In this document: positions 25,453 to 60,369 of the stretch, one piece after another
How positions within the stretch are numbered: the first letter of the stretch is position 1
How the letters are laid out: every line of letters starts with the position of its first letter
Source of the DNA: Buchnera aphidicola (Aphis nasturtii)
Lineage (GTDB): Bacteria; Pseudomonadota; Gammaproteobacteria; Enterobacterales; Enterobacteriaceae
Assembly (NCBI RefSeq): GCF_005083345.1
Contig: NZ_CP034888.1
Coordinates: 335,448-399,447 of the forward strand
DNA length: 64,000 nucleotides
Reading direction: 5' to 3'
Program-made: the position numbers and the translations under genes
The notes under the pieces: model-generated
What the model was told of the DNA's origin: nothing
What the model saw: the letters and a program-made list of their open reading frames with translations, nothing else
The model's database searches: none

Positions 25453-25540
25453 TGGTACCCGGAGCGGGACTTGAACCCGCAAAGCTTTTAAAGCCGAGGG
25501 ATTTTAAGTCCCTTGTGTCTACCGATTTCACCATCCGGGC
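25453..25540 (-). tRNA. leuZ: tRNA-Leu(UAA)
   Basis: The minus strand folds into a class II tRNA with acceptor GCCCGGA/TCCGGGT, anticodon loop CTTAAAA (anticodon UAA), a long variable arm and GGTTCAAGTC in the T loop. CCA is encoded. It closely matches E. coli leuZ and follows tRNA-Cys by four bases, preserving the order of the E. coli glyW-cysT-leuZ operon without glyW. Confidence 0.97.
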
Positions 25541-25544
25541 GTTT

Positions 25545-25615
25545 AGGCGTATCCCGGAATCGAACCGGGTTATACGGATTTGCAATCCGCTACATAGCCA
25601 ATCTGTCAACACGCC
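25545..25615 (-). tRNA. cysT: tRNA-Cys(GCA)
   Basis: The minus strand has acceptor GGCGTGT/ATACGCC with discriminator U, anticodon stem-loop GCGGATTGCAAATCCGT (anticodon GCA) and T loop GGTTCGATTCC. CCA is not encoded, so it must be added by the CCA-adding enzyme. It is the first gene of a two-tRNA transcript. Confidence 0.96.
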
Positions 25616-25628
25616 TTTTATGTTTTTT

Positions 25629-25657
25629 ATTATAGAAAAAAAAAAATAAAATTACAA
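25629..25657 (-). promoter_or_regulatory. Candidate promoter of the tRNA-Cys/tRNA-Leu unit
   Basis: On the minus strand TTGTAA (25657-25652) and TATAAT (25634-25629) are 17 bases apart, 13 bases upstream of tRNA-Cys. Eleven of the 17 spacer bases are a single T run. Confidence 0.55.
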
Positions 25658-25779
25658 ATAAAATTTGATGAATATAAAAATATTTATATAAAAGTTTTAA
25701 TAAAATAAAAAATTATCTTTACATTCATCAACAGAATGTTTTAACATTGCAATGTTTCATAATTAAAATATATATTTTA

Positions 25780-25844
25780 GAAGGCAGCGGTCTTGAAAAC
25801 CGCCGATGAGAAATCATCCGAGAGTTCGAATCTCTCTCTCTCCG
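25780..25844 (+). pseudogene. serT: 5'-truncated tRNA-Ser(UGA)
   Basis: From GAAGGC onward the sequence is a normal class II tRNA-Ser: D-stem 3' strand, anticodon stem-loop GCGGT-CTTGAAA-ACCGC (anticodon UGA), variable arm GATGA-GAAA-TCATC, T arm GAGAG-TTCGAAT-CTCTC, and acceptor 3' strand TCTCTCC with discriminator G. CCA is not encoded. The 20 bases expected upstream, starting with a GGAGAGA acceptor strand and the D-arm 5' strand, are absent. They are replaced by AT-rich sequence ending in the 16-base palindrome TAAAATATATATTTTA (25764-25779). No matching 5' half is visible nearby. Annotation programs may still call it a tRNA, but as written it cannot fold. Confidence 0.75.
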
Positions 25845-25882
25845 AAAAATCAAACAACTAAAAATTTATACCTCAAAAAAAA

Positions 25883-26908
25883 TTATTGATCAGCAGAAAC
25901 TTCAATTTCTACACGACGATCGGGTGCTAAACAACTAATTAATAAAGGCCTACTCTCTATATCTTTACATATTTGATCAGTTAAAGGATATTGATTACCC
26001 ATTCCTTGGATATTTATTGTATTTTCAGGCACTCCATGAGAAGTAAAATAATTTTTAATACTATATGCACGATCTTCAGATAACTTTTGGTTATATTCTT
26101 TATTACCTATTCTATCTGTATGCCCTGAAAGTGTAATATAAACTTTTTTCGATTTAATATTATTTATTTCATCATTAATTTTTTTTAACTTGTCATAAGA
26201 TATAGGTCGTAATTCGGTACTGTTGAAAGGAAAATTAATATTTTCATTAAGTGCAATATATTGTTGATTCGATGTTTCTGGTGAATATGATGTAAACATA
26301 TCATTAATTTTAGACTTTCCAAATTTCCATGCAAAAGAAATCACTGCATCTCCTAAGGTAGGTTTTGATAAGTTCATTATTTTTTCAACACTACTTTTCC
26401 ATGTGTAATCAAATCTCGTAATAAATTCATCATTAAAAATATATTCGGCACCTAAAGATAAACTAGGGAATACACAACTATGCTTGGTAAAAGTCTTTTT
26501 TAAATCTTCTTTAGAAGCTAGATTTTCCCAAAACATCATTCCTCCTAATCGTGTATATAGTCGGAAATCATCTGTAATAGGATAAGATAATTTTGTTGAA
26601 ATTTGAACATTATTTGCTTGCATATTTTCTTTGGATTTTTGAAACATTAGATGCGGAGAAAATCCAGTTGTGTCATTTTCTATTTCCAAACCAAAATATG
26701 GATTAAATTCATATCCTAAAAATAATCCAAACATAGGAGCATTAGTGCTTTGCTCATTTTTTAAACCTTGAATTTCTTTATAGTGTAGAAGATTGAAATT
26801 CGACCATCCAACTTTAGCACCTAAGTACCATCCATCATTACTTTTTGATTGAACGCTACTGACTAAACTTACTAATAAAATTAGAATAGTAAGAGCTTTT
26901 TTTTTCAT
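25883..26908 (-). CDS. ompA: Outer membrane protein A
   Basis: An outer-membrane beta-barrel protein with a peptidoglycan-binding tail. The 341 residues begin with a signal peptide (about 1-21, ending VQS), then an eight-strand barrel beginning [13 protein letters not shown] and containing [11 protein letters not shown]-terminal OmpA/MotB domain (about 210-341) has the conserved [22 protein letters not shown] cysteine pair (near [20 protein letters not shown]) matches the E. coli disulfide region. It stands alone between tRNA-Ser and murJ. Confidence 0.96.
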
Positions 26909-29936: not shown

Positions 29937-30352
29937 CTATAATTCCCCATTAATATCATAAATAGTATTATTGTTATAAGATTTATAAAAATTTAAAAAA
30001 TTCTGATTTAAATAAAATTTATGTTTTATTAATTTTTTATTTTTGAGATTTATTTTATTTAAAGATATACATTTATTTTTTATCTTATTTACATAATAAT
30101 TTCTTGATTTATTAAATTGCAAATAAGAGGAAGTAATATGATATGTTTTTTCAAGAGATAGCTGTATTTTTTTTAAGCAATTTAATTTATTTAAAAAAAA
30201 TTTTTTTTTTCTACAATATAAGATAACTTTTTTATATCAGTATGAGAATTTAATAAAATTTCATGTTCTTCATGCATAATTTTATCTAATGTAAGAAGAA
30301 CATTATCTATTTTTTGAAATACATCAATTAATTTTTTCATTTTTCTATCCAT
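29937..30352 (-). pseudogene. flgN: Flagellar export chaperone FlgN, one-base deficit in a poly(A) tract
   Basis: FlgN is the secretion chaperone for the hook-filament junction proteins FlgK and FlgL. An ATG at 30352 opens a 53-residue frame starting MDRKMKKLIDVFQKIDNVLL and ending in TAA at 30193-30191. The rest is read in another frame down to 29937. The frames meet at the coding-strand run A10 followed by T8 (30210-30193). Adding one A (or one T) gives a single 138-residue protein, exactly the E. coli FlgN length. It follows flgA by 41 bases; flgM, which lies between them in E. coli, is absent. It is either a pseudogene or slippage-rescued. Identity rests on position, length and weak similarity. 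Confidence 0.82.
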
Positions 30353-30393
30353 CTTTTAATTTATATTATTACTAAAATATAATATTATTAATT

Positions 30394-31050
30394 TTATAAA
30401 ACAACTATTACCTCTCCATTATCATTAATTATTCCAGTAAAAATTTTCCTATCTTTAATTTGTACGCGTATTTTTTCTTTAATACCACCATTACCTAATG
30501 CTTTTCCAGTAGTAATAATTTCAAAATTTTTGCCTTCAAACTTAATAGTAACCTCTTTATTTAATGTAACTATCCAAAATGCACGCGTCATAGAAGATGT
30601 AATTGGTTGAAAAGGAAGAATATCGTGTAAATTTACTCTATTTATAACATCTTTTTTATTCAGATAAATTCCATTAGGAAGTTTATCTAAACGTCCAAAT
30701 ATAACTTTTAAATCTGATTCACTTATTTTTGTACCGCGAAAAATTTTTTTCTTCGCTACAATATAATGTCCCTTAACTTGTAATTCTAATTTTAAAAATT
30801 GATGTTGTTTCCCACAAACATATAAAATATCAAATAAACTAAAATTATAAAAATGATTTGATAATAAAAAATATGGTTTTTTACAAATTTGTTTTTTTTT
30901 AAAAGGGGTACGTATTAATATTTTAAAATTTTTTGGATTAAGAGAATATTCTTGCTTGAAAAATTCGTTTAAATGATTTATTAAATCATTAGCATTAATT
31001 TTAAAAGATAAAAAAAGTAATAAAATAAAAAAAATTTTTAATAATTTCAT
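30394..31050 (-). CDS. flgA: Flagellar P-ring assembly protein FlgA
   Basis: A periplasmic chaperone for FlgI assembly into the P ring. The 218 residues match the E. coli 219, with an N-terminal signal peptide (about 1-20, ending KINA). The C-terminal SAF-like domain has the conserved RGTKISESDLKVIFGRLDKLP and the final GKNFEIITTGKALGNG. It is divergent from flgB. Confidence 0.94.
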   Translation of the reverse strand: MKLLKIFFILLLFLSFKINANDLINHLNEFFKQEYSLNPKNFKILIRTPFKKKQICKKPYFLLSNHFYNFSLFDILYVCGKQHQFLKLELQVKGHYIVAKKKIFRGTKISESDLKVIFGRLDKLPNGIYLNKKDVINRVNLHDILPFQPITSSMTRAFWIVTLNKEVTIKFEGKNFEIITTGKALGNGGIKEKIRVQIKDRKIFTGIINDNGEVIVVL

Positions 31051-56481: not shown

Positions 56482-58575
56482 ATGAACTATTTATATGCTA
56501 GTACAAATTTAGGATGTGAAAAATTATTAGAAAATGAACTTATTTTTTTAGGAGCAAAAAACTTACATATTATTAAAGGAGGTATTTATTATGAGGGTGA
56601 AGATTTATTATTATATCGAAGTTTAATATGGAGTCGAATTGCTTCTAGAATTTATCTATGTATTAAAAATTTTATTATTAATAGCAAAAGCGATTTATAT
56701 AGTAATATTGCTCAAATTAATTGGGATAAAATTTTATATTTGCATAATACATTTTTGGTAAAATTTAAAGGACAAAATAATATTATTAAAAATAGTTTAT
56801 TTGGATCATTAACTATAAAAGATGCAATTGTGGATCAATTTTACAAAAAATATTCCATGCGCCCTAATATTGACCTTATTAATCCTAATATTCGCATTAA
56901 AGCGTTATTAATTAAAAATAAAATAAATATTATGTTAGATTTATGTGGTAATTCTTTACATCAAAGATGTTATCGAAAATTTTCTCATATAACACCGATA
57001 AAAGAAAACTTAGGTGCAGCAATTGTATTAAGTTCGACGTGGACAAAAAATATTCCTTTAATAGATCCCATGTGCGGTTCTGGAACGTTGTTAATTGAAG
57101 CAGCAATGATTTACTCTGATAGAGCGCCAGGACTCAAAAGAGATAAATGGAGCTTTAAATTTTGGAAAGGATACAATAGTTTTTTATGGAATAAGATTCT
57201 TAACGAAGCAAATACAAAATTTAAAATAAGAATAAAAAAATGTAATAAAAATTTGTTTATAGGATACGATTATAACAATACAATTATAAAACAAGCAAAA
57301 GAAAATGCATTTAATGCCAATGTACTAGAAATTATTCAATTTTCAACATCTAATTTAAATAACCTTACTAATCCATATAAAAATAAGGAAATAGGAACAT
57401 TATTAAGCAATCCACCATATGGAGAAAGAGAGCACACTGAAAACTCACTAGTAGCATTATATGTTCAAATGGGATTTATATTTAAAAAACATTTTAAAAA
57501 TTGGAAACTATCAATATTTACTGCATCAAAATTTTTATCAAATTTTTTACAAATGCAAGCTTATGAAGAATTATTTTTTAAGAATGGTCCATTAAATTGC
57601 TTTTTAAAAAATTATAAAATATTTTCAGAGATACTAAATCAAGAAAATAAAGAATATGAAAATAGATTAAAAAAAAATATTCAAAAATTAAAAAAATGGA
57701 ATGACTTAAAGCAAATAGAATGTTTCCGTATATATGATAGAGATATACCTAATTATAATATTATTGTAGATATTTATAAAAATTGGTTAGTAATTCAAGA
57801 GTATCAAGCGCCGAAAAAAATAAATATACATTATTCTTACAAAAGACTATGTTATGCTATTTATTGCACTAAAGAAATACTATCTATTCCAATTAATAAT
57901 ATAGTATTTAAGACAAGAAAAAAACAAAAATATAAATTACAATATCAAAAGCTTTTTAATAGTAAAAAATTTTTTATAATTCAAGAATATCATGTCAAAT
58001 TATTAATAAATTTATTTGATTATTTAGATACTGGGATATTTTTAGAACATCGATGCACAAGAAAACTAATAAGTACAATGTCTCATAATAAAGATTTTTT
58101 AAATTTATTTGCATATACTGGTAGCGCAAGTGTTTATGCAGGACTAGGAGGTGCTAAAAGTACAACTACTGTAGATATATCTAATACATACATAAAATGG
58201 TCTATAAAAAATATGTCAATTAATAATTTAATTGGTAAGCAACATTCTTTTATTCAATCAAATTGTTTAGAGTGGATTGAGTCAAATTATCAAAAATTTG
58301 ATTTAATATTTATTAATCCACCAACTTTTTCAAATTCAAAAAAAATGAAAAAATTTTTTGAATTAAAAAAAGATTATCTTAATTTACTAAATAGTTTAAA
58401 AAAAAATCTACGAAAAAATGGTTACATTATTTTTTCAAGTTCTACAAATAATTTTAAACTAAATTTTAATGAAATTAATAAAATAAAACTGCATGTTAAA
58501 AACATCACTAATTCAGTTCAATCAAAAGATTGTTTTAACAAAAAGTATTACTCCTGGTTAATAAAACATATATAA
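56482..58575 (+). CDS. rlmL: 23S rRNA methyltransferase RlmKL (YcbY)
   Basis: A bifunctional enzyme: the N-terminal part makes m2G2445 and the C-terminal part m7G2069 in 23S rRNA. The 697 residues (702 in E. coli) have an N-terminal THUMP domain (about 45-155), the first methyltransferase with LIDPMCGSGTLLIEA and LSNPPYGER, and the second (about 500-697) with LNLFAYTGSASVYAGLGGA and FINPPTFSNS. uup follows 21 bases later, as in E. coli. Confidence 0.95.
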   Translation: MNYLYASTNLGCEKLLENELIFLGAKNLHIIKGGIYYEGEDLLLYRSLIWSRIASRIYLCIKNFIINSKSDLYSNIAQINWDKILYLHNTFLVKFKGQNNIIKNSLFGSLTIKDAIVDQFYKKYSMRPNIDLINPNIRIKALLIKNKINIMLDLCGNSLHQRCYRKFSHITPIKENLGAAIVLSSTWTKNIPLIDPMCGSGTLLIEAAMIYSDRAPGLKRDKWSFKFWKGYNSFLWNKILNEANTKFKIRIKKCNKNLFIGYDYNNTIIKQAKENAFNANVLEIIQFSTSNLNNLTNPYKNKEIGTLLSNPPYGEREHTENSLVALYVQMGFIFKKHFKNWKLSIFTASKFLSNFLQMQAYEELFFKNGPLNCFLKNYKIFSEILNQENKEYENRLKKNIQKLKKWNDLKQIECFRIYDRDIPNYNIIVDIYKNWLVIQEYQAPKKINIHYSYKRLCYAIYCTKEILSIPINNIVFKTRKKQKYKLQYQKLFNSKKFFIIQEYHVKLLINLFDYLDTGIFLEHRCTRKLISTMSHNKDFLNLFAYTGSASVYAGLGGAKSTTTVDISNTYIKWSIKNMSINNLIGKQHSFIQSNCLEWIESNYQKFDLIFINPPTFSNSKKMKKFFELKKDYLNLLNSLKKNLRKNGYIIFSSSTNNFKLNFNEINKIKLHVKNITNSVQSKDCFNKKYYSWLIKHI

Positions 58576-58596
58576 AAAATTTTAAATGAGAAAACT

Positions 58597-60369
58597 ATGA
58601 ATTTAATTAGCATGCAAGATGCTTCTTTATCATTTAGTAATTTAGAAATACTGAAAAACGCTTCTTTTTATTTAAACAAAAACGAACGCGTTTGTTTGAC
58701 TGGTAAAAACGGCGCTGGAAAATCAACTTTGTTGAAAGTAATTAATAAAAAACAAGACTTAGATAAAGGTTTTGTTGTATATAGAAAAAATATTAATATA
58801 TCATATTTATCACAAAATAATTTAAATGATTTAAATATTTCTATTTTTGAATTTATTAAAAAAAAATTTAAAAAAATTTACACCAATGAAACAATAAAAA
58901 TAGAAAAAATAATTGATGCATTAGAATGTAAAAAAGATACTTTACTTTCAGAATTATCTGGTGGATTTTTAAGAAAAGTTGCGTTAGGCGCTGCCTTAGT
59001 AAATCAACCTGATATATTGTTACTTGATGAACCTACTAATCATTTAGATATGAATACAATTCAATGGCTAGAAAATTTTTTAAAAAAATTTTCTGGAAGT
59101 ATTATATTCATATCACATGATAGATGTTTTATTCATAATATATGCACAAGAATTGTTGATCTTGATCGAGGAAAGTTAATGTCTTTCCCAGGAGATTATA
59201 AAAATTTTATTACATTAAAACAAAAAAATTATCATATTGAAAAAATTCAAAAAAAATTATTTGATCAAAAATTAGAAAAAGAAGAAATTTGGATTAAAAA
59301 AGGAATTAAAGCACGTAGCACAAGAAATGAAGGTAGAGTGAAAAATTTAGAAAAATTAAGAAAAGAAAATGAAAATTATAAAAAAATAGAAAAATTTCAA
59401 AATATTCAAGTTAACGAAACCCAAGATTATGCTGGAAAAATTATGTTTAATTTAAAAAACATAAATTTTTGTATAGCAAATAAAACTATTATTAAAAATT
59501 TTTCTTCAGTAATACAGTATGGTGATAAAATAGGATTAATTGGTAAAAATGGTTCTGGCAAAAGCACTATGATAAAAATACTTACAGGAGAAAATAAAAT
59601 TCAAACAGGATATTTTTATTCAGGTCAGAAACTAAAAATAGCATATTTTGATCAAAATCGATCAATATTAAACTCTCAAAAATCTATTTTAGATAATGTA
59701 AATGAAGGACAAAATAAAATTTTAATTCATGGAAAAGAACAATATTTAATAGGCTATTTAAAAAAATTTTTATTTCAACCAAATGAGTTAAAACGATTAG
59801 TAAAAACTTTATCTGGAGGAGAATGCAACAGGCTGCTTTTAGCCAAATTATTTTTAAAGGAAAATAATATATTAATTTTCGATGAACCTACAAATGATTT
59901 AGATTTAGATACATTAAAATTATTAGAAAAAATTATTATTCAATATTCTGGAACTGTTTTAATAGTAAGCCATGATAGAAATTTTATTCAAAATACGGTA
60001 AACAAATATTGGTTATTTAAAGGAAATGGATTAATTACTACACATTTAGGTATCTATAATGAATTAACAGAACAAGCAATTAATAAAAATAAAACCAAAA
60101 AAAATATATATAATTTAAATAAAAAATTAAAATTACCAAATAAAAGTACACTAAAGAAAGCAATAGAAAAAATATTATATCAAATTGAAAACATAGAAAA
60201 AAACATTAAAATTTTGCAAGATGAAATAAACGAACCTAAATTTTTTAAAAAAAATATTGTTAATAAATTGCCTCTATTAAAAGAACTAAATTCCGAAGAA
60301 AAGAAACTAAAACAAAAAATAATATGCTGGGAAAATTTAGAAAAAAATATCAGAAACTTAGATAGATAA
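58597..60369 (+). CDS. uup: ABC-F ATPase Uup
   Basis: A cytoplasmic ABC-F protein, linked in E. coli to ribosome function and to transposon excision. The 590 residues (635 in E. coli) contain two ATPase domains: GKNGAGKST and LSGGFLRKVALGAALVNQPDILLLDEPTNHLD in the first, GKNGSGKST and LSGGECNRLLLAKLFL...IFDEPTNDLDLD in the second. A linker and a Lys-rich C-terminal coiled coil (about 520-590) lie outside them. The C-terminal DNA-binding part is shortened. Confidence 0.95.
   Translation: MNLISMQDASLSFSNLEILKNASFYLNKNERVCLTGKNGAGKSTLLKVINKKQDLDKGFVVYRKNINISYLSQNNLNDLNISIFEFIKKKFKKIYTNETIKIEKIIDALECKKDTLLSELSGGFLRKVALGAALVNQPDILLLDEPTNHLDMNTIQWLENFLKKFSGSIIFISHDRCFIHNICTRIVDLDRGKLMSFPGDYKNFITLKQKNYHIEKIQKKLFDQKLEKEEIWIKKGIKARSTRNEGRVKNLEKLRKENENYKKIEKFQNIQVNETQDYAGKIMFNLKNINFCIANKTIIKNFSSVIQYGDKIGLIGKNGSGKSTMIKILTGENKIQTGYFYSGQKLKIAYFDQNRSILNSQKSILDNVNEGQNKILIHGKEQYLIGYLKKFLFQPNELKRLVKTLSGGECNRLLLAKLFLKENNILIFDEPTNDLDLDTLKLLEKIIIQYSGTVLIVSHDRNFIQNTVNKYWLFKGNGLITTHLGIYNELTEQAINKNKTKKNIYNLNKKLKLPNKSTLKKAIEKILYQIENIEKNIKILQDEINEPKFFKKNIVNKLPLLKELNSEEKKLKQKIICWENLEKNIRNLDR

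Follow-up and report, generated by a model that had tools for sequence, protein, structure and literature searches.

A tRNA-Ser(UGA) gene without its 5′ part in the deposited genome of Buchnera aphidicola from Aphis nasturtii

The genome of Buchnera aphidicola from Aphis nasturtii (RefSeq assembly GCF_005083345.1), which is reportedly the work of Chong et al. 2019, comprises a chromosome (630,331 bases) together with two plasmids, one of 7,595 and one of 3,102 bases. The larger plasmid has 52 matching records, all of them from Buchnera, the best, at 95.4% identity, being the pLeu plasmid of the Aphis urticata symbiont, and the smaller one is best matched (91.7%) by a second A. urticata Buchnera plasmid with anthranilate synthase genes. 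The stretch analysed here, called the window, comprises 64,000 bases of the chromosome (NZ_CP034888.1, positions 335,448 to 399,447), and coordinates are those of the window. Two intact tRNA genes on the minus strand, tRNA-Leu(UAA) (25453-25540) and tRNA-Cys(GCA) (25544-25616), are the only ones that ARAGORN detects within it. Beside them lie a truncated tRNA-Ser(UGA) gene on the plus strand (25780-25844) and an OmpA family gene on the minus strand (25883-26908, Pfam OmpA_membrane and OmpA), whose frame is unbroken; a related-locus search with the OmpA protein gave five loci, none of them named Buchnera. A promoter-like site on the plus strand (25718-25747; TTTACA, 18 bases, TAACAT, 9 of 12 matches) falls in a block upstream of the tRNA-Ser(UGA) gene which is conserved in an alignment of 10 genomes and is kept in the A. 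nasturtii symbiont, and such sites number six in 25600-25900 (301 bases, both strands) against 2.4 in shuffled sequences.

The initial annotation had described a tRNA-Ser(UGA) without its 5′ 20 bases, intact from the 3′ strand of the D stem to the discriminator base, and both statements are borne out. BLASTN against the close relative G016 gives a single 20-base gap directly before 25781, window positions 25781-25844 agree in 64 of 64 bases with positions 22-85 of a complete tRNA-Ser(UGA) gene, and the fragment (C1:361219-361284) scores 17.3 bits with the Rfam RF00005 covariance model run on the whole genome, below the cut-off of 29. If G25780 is taken for tRNA position 1, the bases that are missing are positions 2-21; a loss of 21 bases with one substitution is an equal reading. 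What is absent is the acceptor 5′ strand together with the 5′ side of the D arm; the anticodon arm with UGA (TGA at 25794-25796), the long variable arm, the T arm, the acceptor 3′ strand and the discriminator G are all intact and identify the gene as a tRNA-Ser(UGA). The same 64-base stretch is 100% identical in ten relatives in a DNA search of the genus.

As a functional tRNA, the fragment falls short both in its RF00005 score and in its acceptor stem, the 5′ strand of which is absent; when folded, the anticodon, variable and T arms form and the acceptor 3′ strand is left unpaired. It resembles the complete tRNA-Ser(UGA) found in other Buchnera (serT in E. coli) in its anticodon, in the 64 bases shared with the ten relatives, in similar flanks and in the conserved upstream block, and differs in lacking positions 2-21, so that no acceptor stem or D arm can form. 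The D arm is also missing from the D-armless mitochondrial tRNA-Ser, but these retain both strands of the acceptor stem, whereas the Buchnera fragment lacks the 5′ strand. Compared with a pseudogene, conserved parts are gone, yet the remaining 64 bases carry no substitution, and a very recent event or an artefact would look alike; these bases look as if they were still under selection.

Among the genomes of the genus that were searched, the truncation is peculiar to this one. The 3′ part of tRNA-Ser(UGA) occurs in 36 of 36 genomes of the genus search and ARAGORN finds the complete gene in 35 of them, the A. nasturtii symbiont being the sole exception. By the tRNA model this genome has 31 tRNA genes and 32 of the 35 others have 32, the remaining three having 30 (G007), 33 (G023) and 27 (G030). 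In G007 and G030 whole neighbouring groups of tRNA matches are absent by eye, unlike the one truncated gene here, and these groups may be missing because of unassembled stretches. When the search with the intact tRNA was extended to the Enterobacteriaceae, 294 of 295 genomes matched at E ≤ 0.001, among the matches listed; other tRNA-Ser genes can match too, so this search gives no frequency of loss for Ser(UGA).

Published tables also contain the deficit. In Table 1 of PMC11193766, rows 1-35 comprise 33 records with 32 tRNAs, one with 33 and one, CP034888.1, with 31, which is the sole record below 32 in those rows; over all 90 rows of that table 41 records are below 32, and 40 of them stand among the 55 rows 36-90, mostly smaller genomes, the table leaving the missing tRNAs unnamed. 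The counts in PMC11813355 give 30 tRNAs for CP034888.1 and 30 or 31 for six others among its 14 Aphis records as well, and because five of those six are listed with 32 in PMC11193766, its low counts are not specific. The two tables thus disagree for the same Buchnera records (for example, A. fabae has 32 and 30), and both give 32 for the symbiont of A. urticata, the closest named relative, a count that predicts an intact gene in its record CP048744.1. Since both use the deposited sequence, they are no independent support for the gap. Among the matches listed in the literature searched, no title or abstract opening describes the deletion.

SerT is described as the sole tRNA decoding UCA (PMC11805395), and in E. 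coli deletion of the serT unit succeeded only when a plasmid supplied a copy (PMC11480407). Loss of tRNA-Ser(UGA) should be lethal. UCA codons had been noted beforehand as common in the window. The 53 frames compared with two relatives, after 7 of 60 had been dropped for overlap, contain 378 UCA and 58 UCG, numbers that are slightly inflated because these are stop-to-stop frames. UCA makes up 0.369 of the TCN codons, and the two genomes most closely related have 0.364 and 0.351. At 270 sites where both relatives have UCA, the A. nasturtii symbiont has UCA at 203, UCG at 19 and UCU at 15, and the change from UCA to UCU (15 of 270) is similar to what other four-codon boxes show for A to T (12/169, 10/322, 11/255, 20/216 and 34/385). 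UCA use is unchanged, and nothing indicates that the genome has adapted to the loss of a tRNA.

A second tRNA-Ser(UGA) and a separately encoded 5′ half were among the four origins that the initial annotation had proposed, and the whole-genome searches speak against both. The 31 intact tRNAs of the whole genome include Ser(GCU) and Ser(GGA) and no second Ser(UGA), and a DNA search with the tRNA-Ser(UGA) sequence gives one match only in this genome. A split tRNA, in which a 5′ half encoded elsewhere is joined to the 3′ half at 25780-25844, would agree with the clean anticodon, variable and T arms, the clean acceptor 3′ strand and the retained upstream block, and its 3′ part standing alone recalls the split tRNAs of Nanoarchaeum, mentioned in PMC6581868; the A. 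nasturtii symbiont differs from these in having no detected 5′ part. No separate 5′ half was found in the window, a 5′-half pattern with up to three mismatches matched only tRNA-Ser(GCU) and tRNA-Ser(GGA) in the 641-kb genome, and a shorter pattern with one mismatch gave one match in the genome against four for its reversed control. For these two patterns, which would miss a 5′ half whose D arm is different, no candidate rises above chance, and we regard a split tRNA as hardly credible. The other two proposed origins, a very recent event and an artefact, remain.

Takeover of UCA reading by another tRNA was considered as well. Under standard wobble rules, an anticodon with G at position 34 does not decode UCA. 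An anticodon change in another tRNA-Ser is not seen in the tRNA set, and tRNA-Ser(GGA) has the same sequence as in the relatives G029, G022, G016 and G015. A D-stem mutant of the tRNA-Leu LeuZ can read UCA as leucine in Salmonella when serT is impaired, according to PMC11805395; a corresponding change was looked for in tRNA-Leu(UAA), which shows no D-stem difference from G016 and G029 and only one different base, in the D loop.

The immediate surroundings of the gap bear on how it may have arisen. In the alignment with G016 and G029 the deletion junction is at 25780/25781, and its ends share no letters by eye. Two perfect palindromes, which had been reported at the outset, were verified: one of 14 bases (25743-25756), which in the two closest relatives has the same arms around a 3-base spacer, and one of 16 bases consisting of A and T only (25764-25779), which adjoins the junction and is imperfect in the relatives. 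Palindromes of such length are common in the window beyond simulated expectation, with 53 at a minimum length of 14 bases and 16 at a minimum of 16 bases, against means of 21.5 (range 11-28) and 7.2 (range 2-13), respectively, in 30 first-order Markov simulations. Nevertheless, frames of at least 100 aa leave 7,419 positions uncovered, of which only 0.4% are at or one base from the edge of a palindrome of at least 16 bases and 0.9% from that of one of at least 14 bases, so a gap abutting the 16-base palindrome is uncommon, though it was noticed post hoc. Because imperfect forms of both palindromes, with small spacers or mismatches, sit at the same place beside the intact gene in the two closest relatives, the inverted repeats predate the gap. 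A hairpin at the palindrome could have favoured a real deletion or sequencing trouble. Slippage between direct repeats was rejected: TTTAAGG stands at both ends of the missing part in G016 and G029, but the letters at the junction, by eye, are not those of a slippage product. No long repeat flanks the gap, the sole repeat found being 19 bases common to tRNA-Ser(GCU).

The quality of the surrounding record was assessed over 67 kb, in which identity is 87.5% to G016 and 86.6% to G029. Among the relatives' frames of at least 150 aa only two are split in the A. nasturtii symbiont, shorter split frames (73 to 112 aa) being left out of this count, and an error-rich assembly is thereby unsupported. 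A glpF-like gene (Pfam MIP; 36-590 and about 548-820) has a frameshift at a poly-A run and is a single 263-aa frame in G016, and about 29940-30400 on the minus strand there are two frames, where G029 has one of 154 aa and 119 aa are matched in G016. Conversely, the counterpart in G029 (57526-59451 of a joined 69-kb stretch) of the 697-aa gene at 56482-58575 is in many pieces. An apparent break at the right edge of the window, in what we take to be valS, is an effect of the window end, and the full frame is intact. Gaps of at least 10 bases relative to G016 number eight, counted within aligned pieces only, and the tRNA gap is the only one placed outside frames of at least 150 aa, frames that extend between stop codons and include some spacer. 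Such a record tells against careless assembly and is compatible with one local error.

On balance, we lean towards regarding the gap as a property of one deposited consensus, that of Buchnera from A. nasturtii, rather than of the symbiont's genome as it works in life. Its cells would, very probably, carry an intact tRNA-Ser(UGA) at this locus, and the 20 bases would have been lost in assembly or in consensus making; we infer that the reads contain the intact gene. The intact gene in all 35 other genomes searched in the genus, and the failure to find an intact or split substitute, support an artefact. The unchanged UCA use, tRNA-Ser(GGA), upstream block and remaining bases, together with the essentiality of serT in E. 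coli, also fit a gene that continues to function in the symbiont. Against an error stand the otherwise good sequence with two broken frames in 67 kb, the lack of a long repeat flanking the gap and the abutting palindrome, at 0.4% of spacer positions, which could have promoted a real deletion. The many smaller-genome Buchnera with fewer than 32 tRNAs (40 of 55 in rows 36-90 of the table in PMC11193766) likewise tell against it, and the unsubstituted remainder fits a very recent true deletion as well. A consensus error of 20 bases would, moreover, be uncommon if the reads were short.

How recent a true deletion would have to be can be estimated roughly. The difference at fourfold sites is 12.9% from A. 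urticata (on pLeu) and 26.1% from G016; had the gene died at the A. urticata split, about 4 substitutions would be expected in 64 sites (half of 12.9%, a rough bound), and none is observed. Because UCA use is maintained and the rest of the gene is unchanged, an artefact or an allele that is not fixed is favoured. Buchnera cells are polyploid. The deletion may be real and recent, present on part of the chromosome copies or in part of the cells of the sequenced aphids; the tRNA would then come from the intact copies, and the short form would have become the consensus. This is a possibility to which we give limited weight: given that the 64 bases carry no substitutions and that UCA use has not changed, the event must be either very recent or tolerated, and the clean 20-base gap beside a palindrome in otherwise good sequence would suit it, but the short form must be in the majority of reads to become the consensus.

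Somewhat less probable, and in our view unlikely, is a very recent loss that is both real and fixed, with UCA and UCG being read in another manner, such as by a serine tRNA imported from the host or through near-cognate reading at a cost to fitness. The deposited sequence does show the gap in surroundings of good quality, the Salmonella LeuZ mutant offers a precedent for altered UCA reading, tRNA sets below 32 are listed for many smaller-genome Buchnera, and host tRNA import has been suggested in PMC6581868 for cicada symbionts with incomplete tRNA sets. The 378 UCA and 58 UCG codons, the unchanged tRNA-Ser(GGA), the unaltered D stem of tRNA-Leu(UAA), the retention of the gene in the 35 other genomes searched and the essentiality of serT in E. 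coli all weigh against it. Hodgkinia and Sulcia, whose incomplete tRNA sets the same paper mentions, are alike in having no intact gene for a tRNA that they would be expected to need, and differ in that the A. nasturtii symbiont has 31 of 32 tRNAs intact and a single small deletion. That a lineage of Buchnera whose tRNA set is otherwise complete has very recently lost its sole UCA tRNA, and that the aphid host supplies a serine tRNA as a first step toward organelle-like import, is improbable. A sequence error or a minority variant is more likely than a true loss, and we rank an error of assembly or consensus first, a minority allele in a polyploid cell second and a fixed, compensated loss third.

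The meaning of the finding differs with its origin. If it is an error, the deposited genome and the tRNA counts derived from it for comparative tables need correction. A real allele would provide a naturally occurring example of a polyploid symbiont with a break in an essential tRNA gene; were the loss fixed, the supply of tRNA from host to Buchnera would become directly testable.
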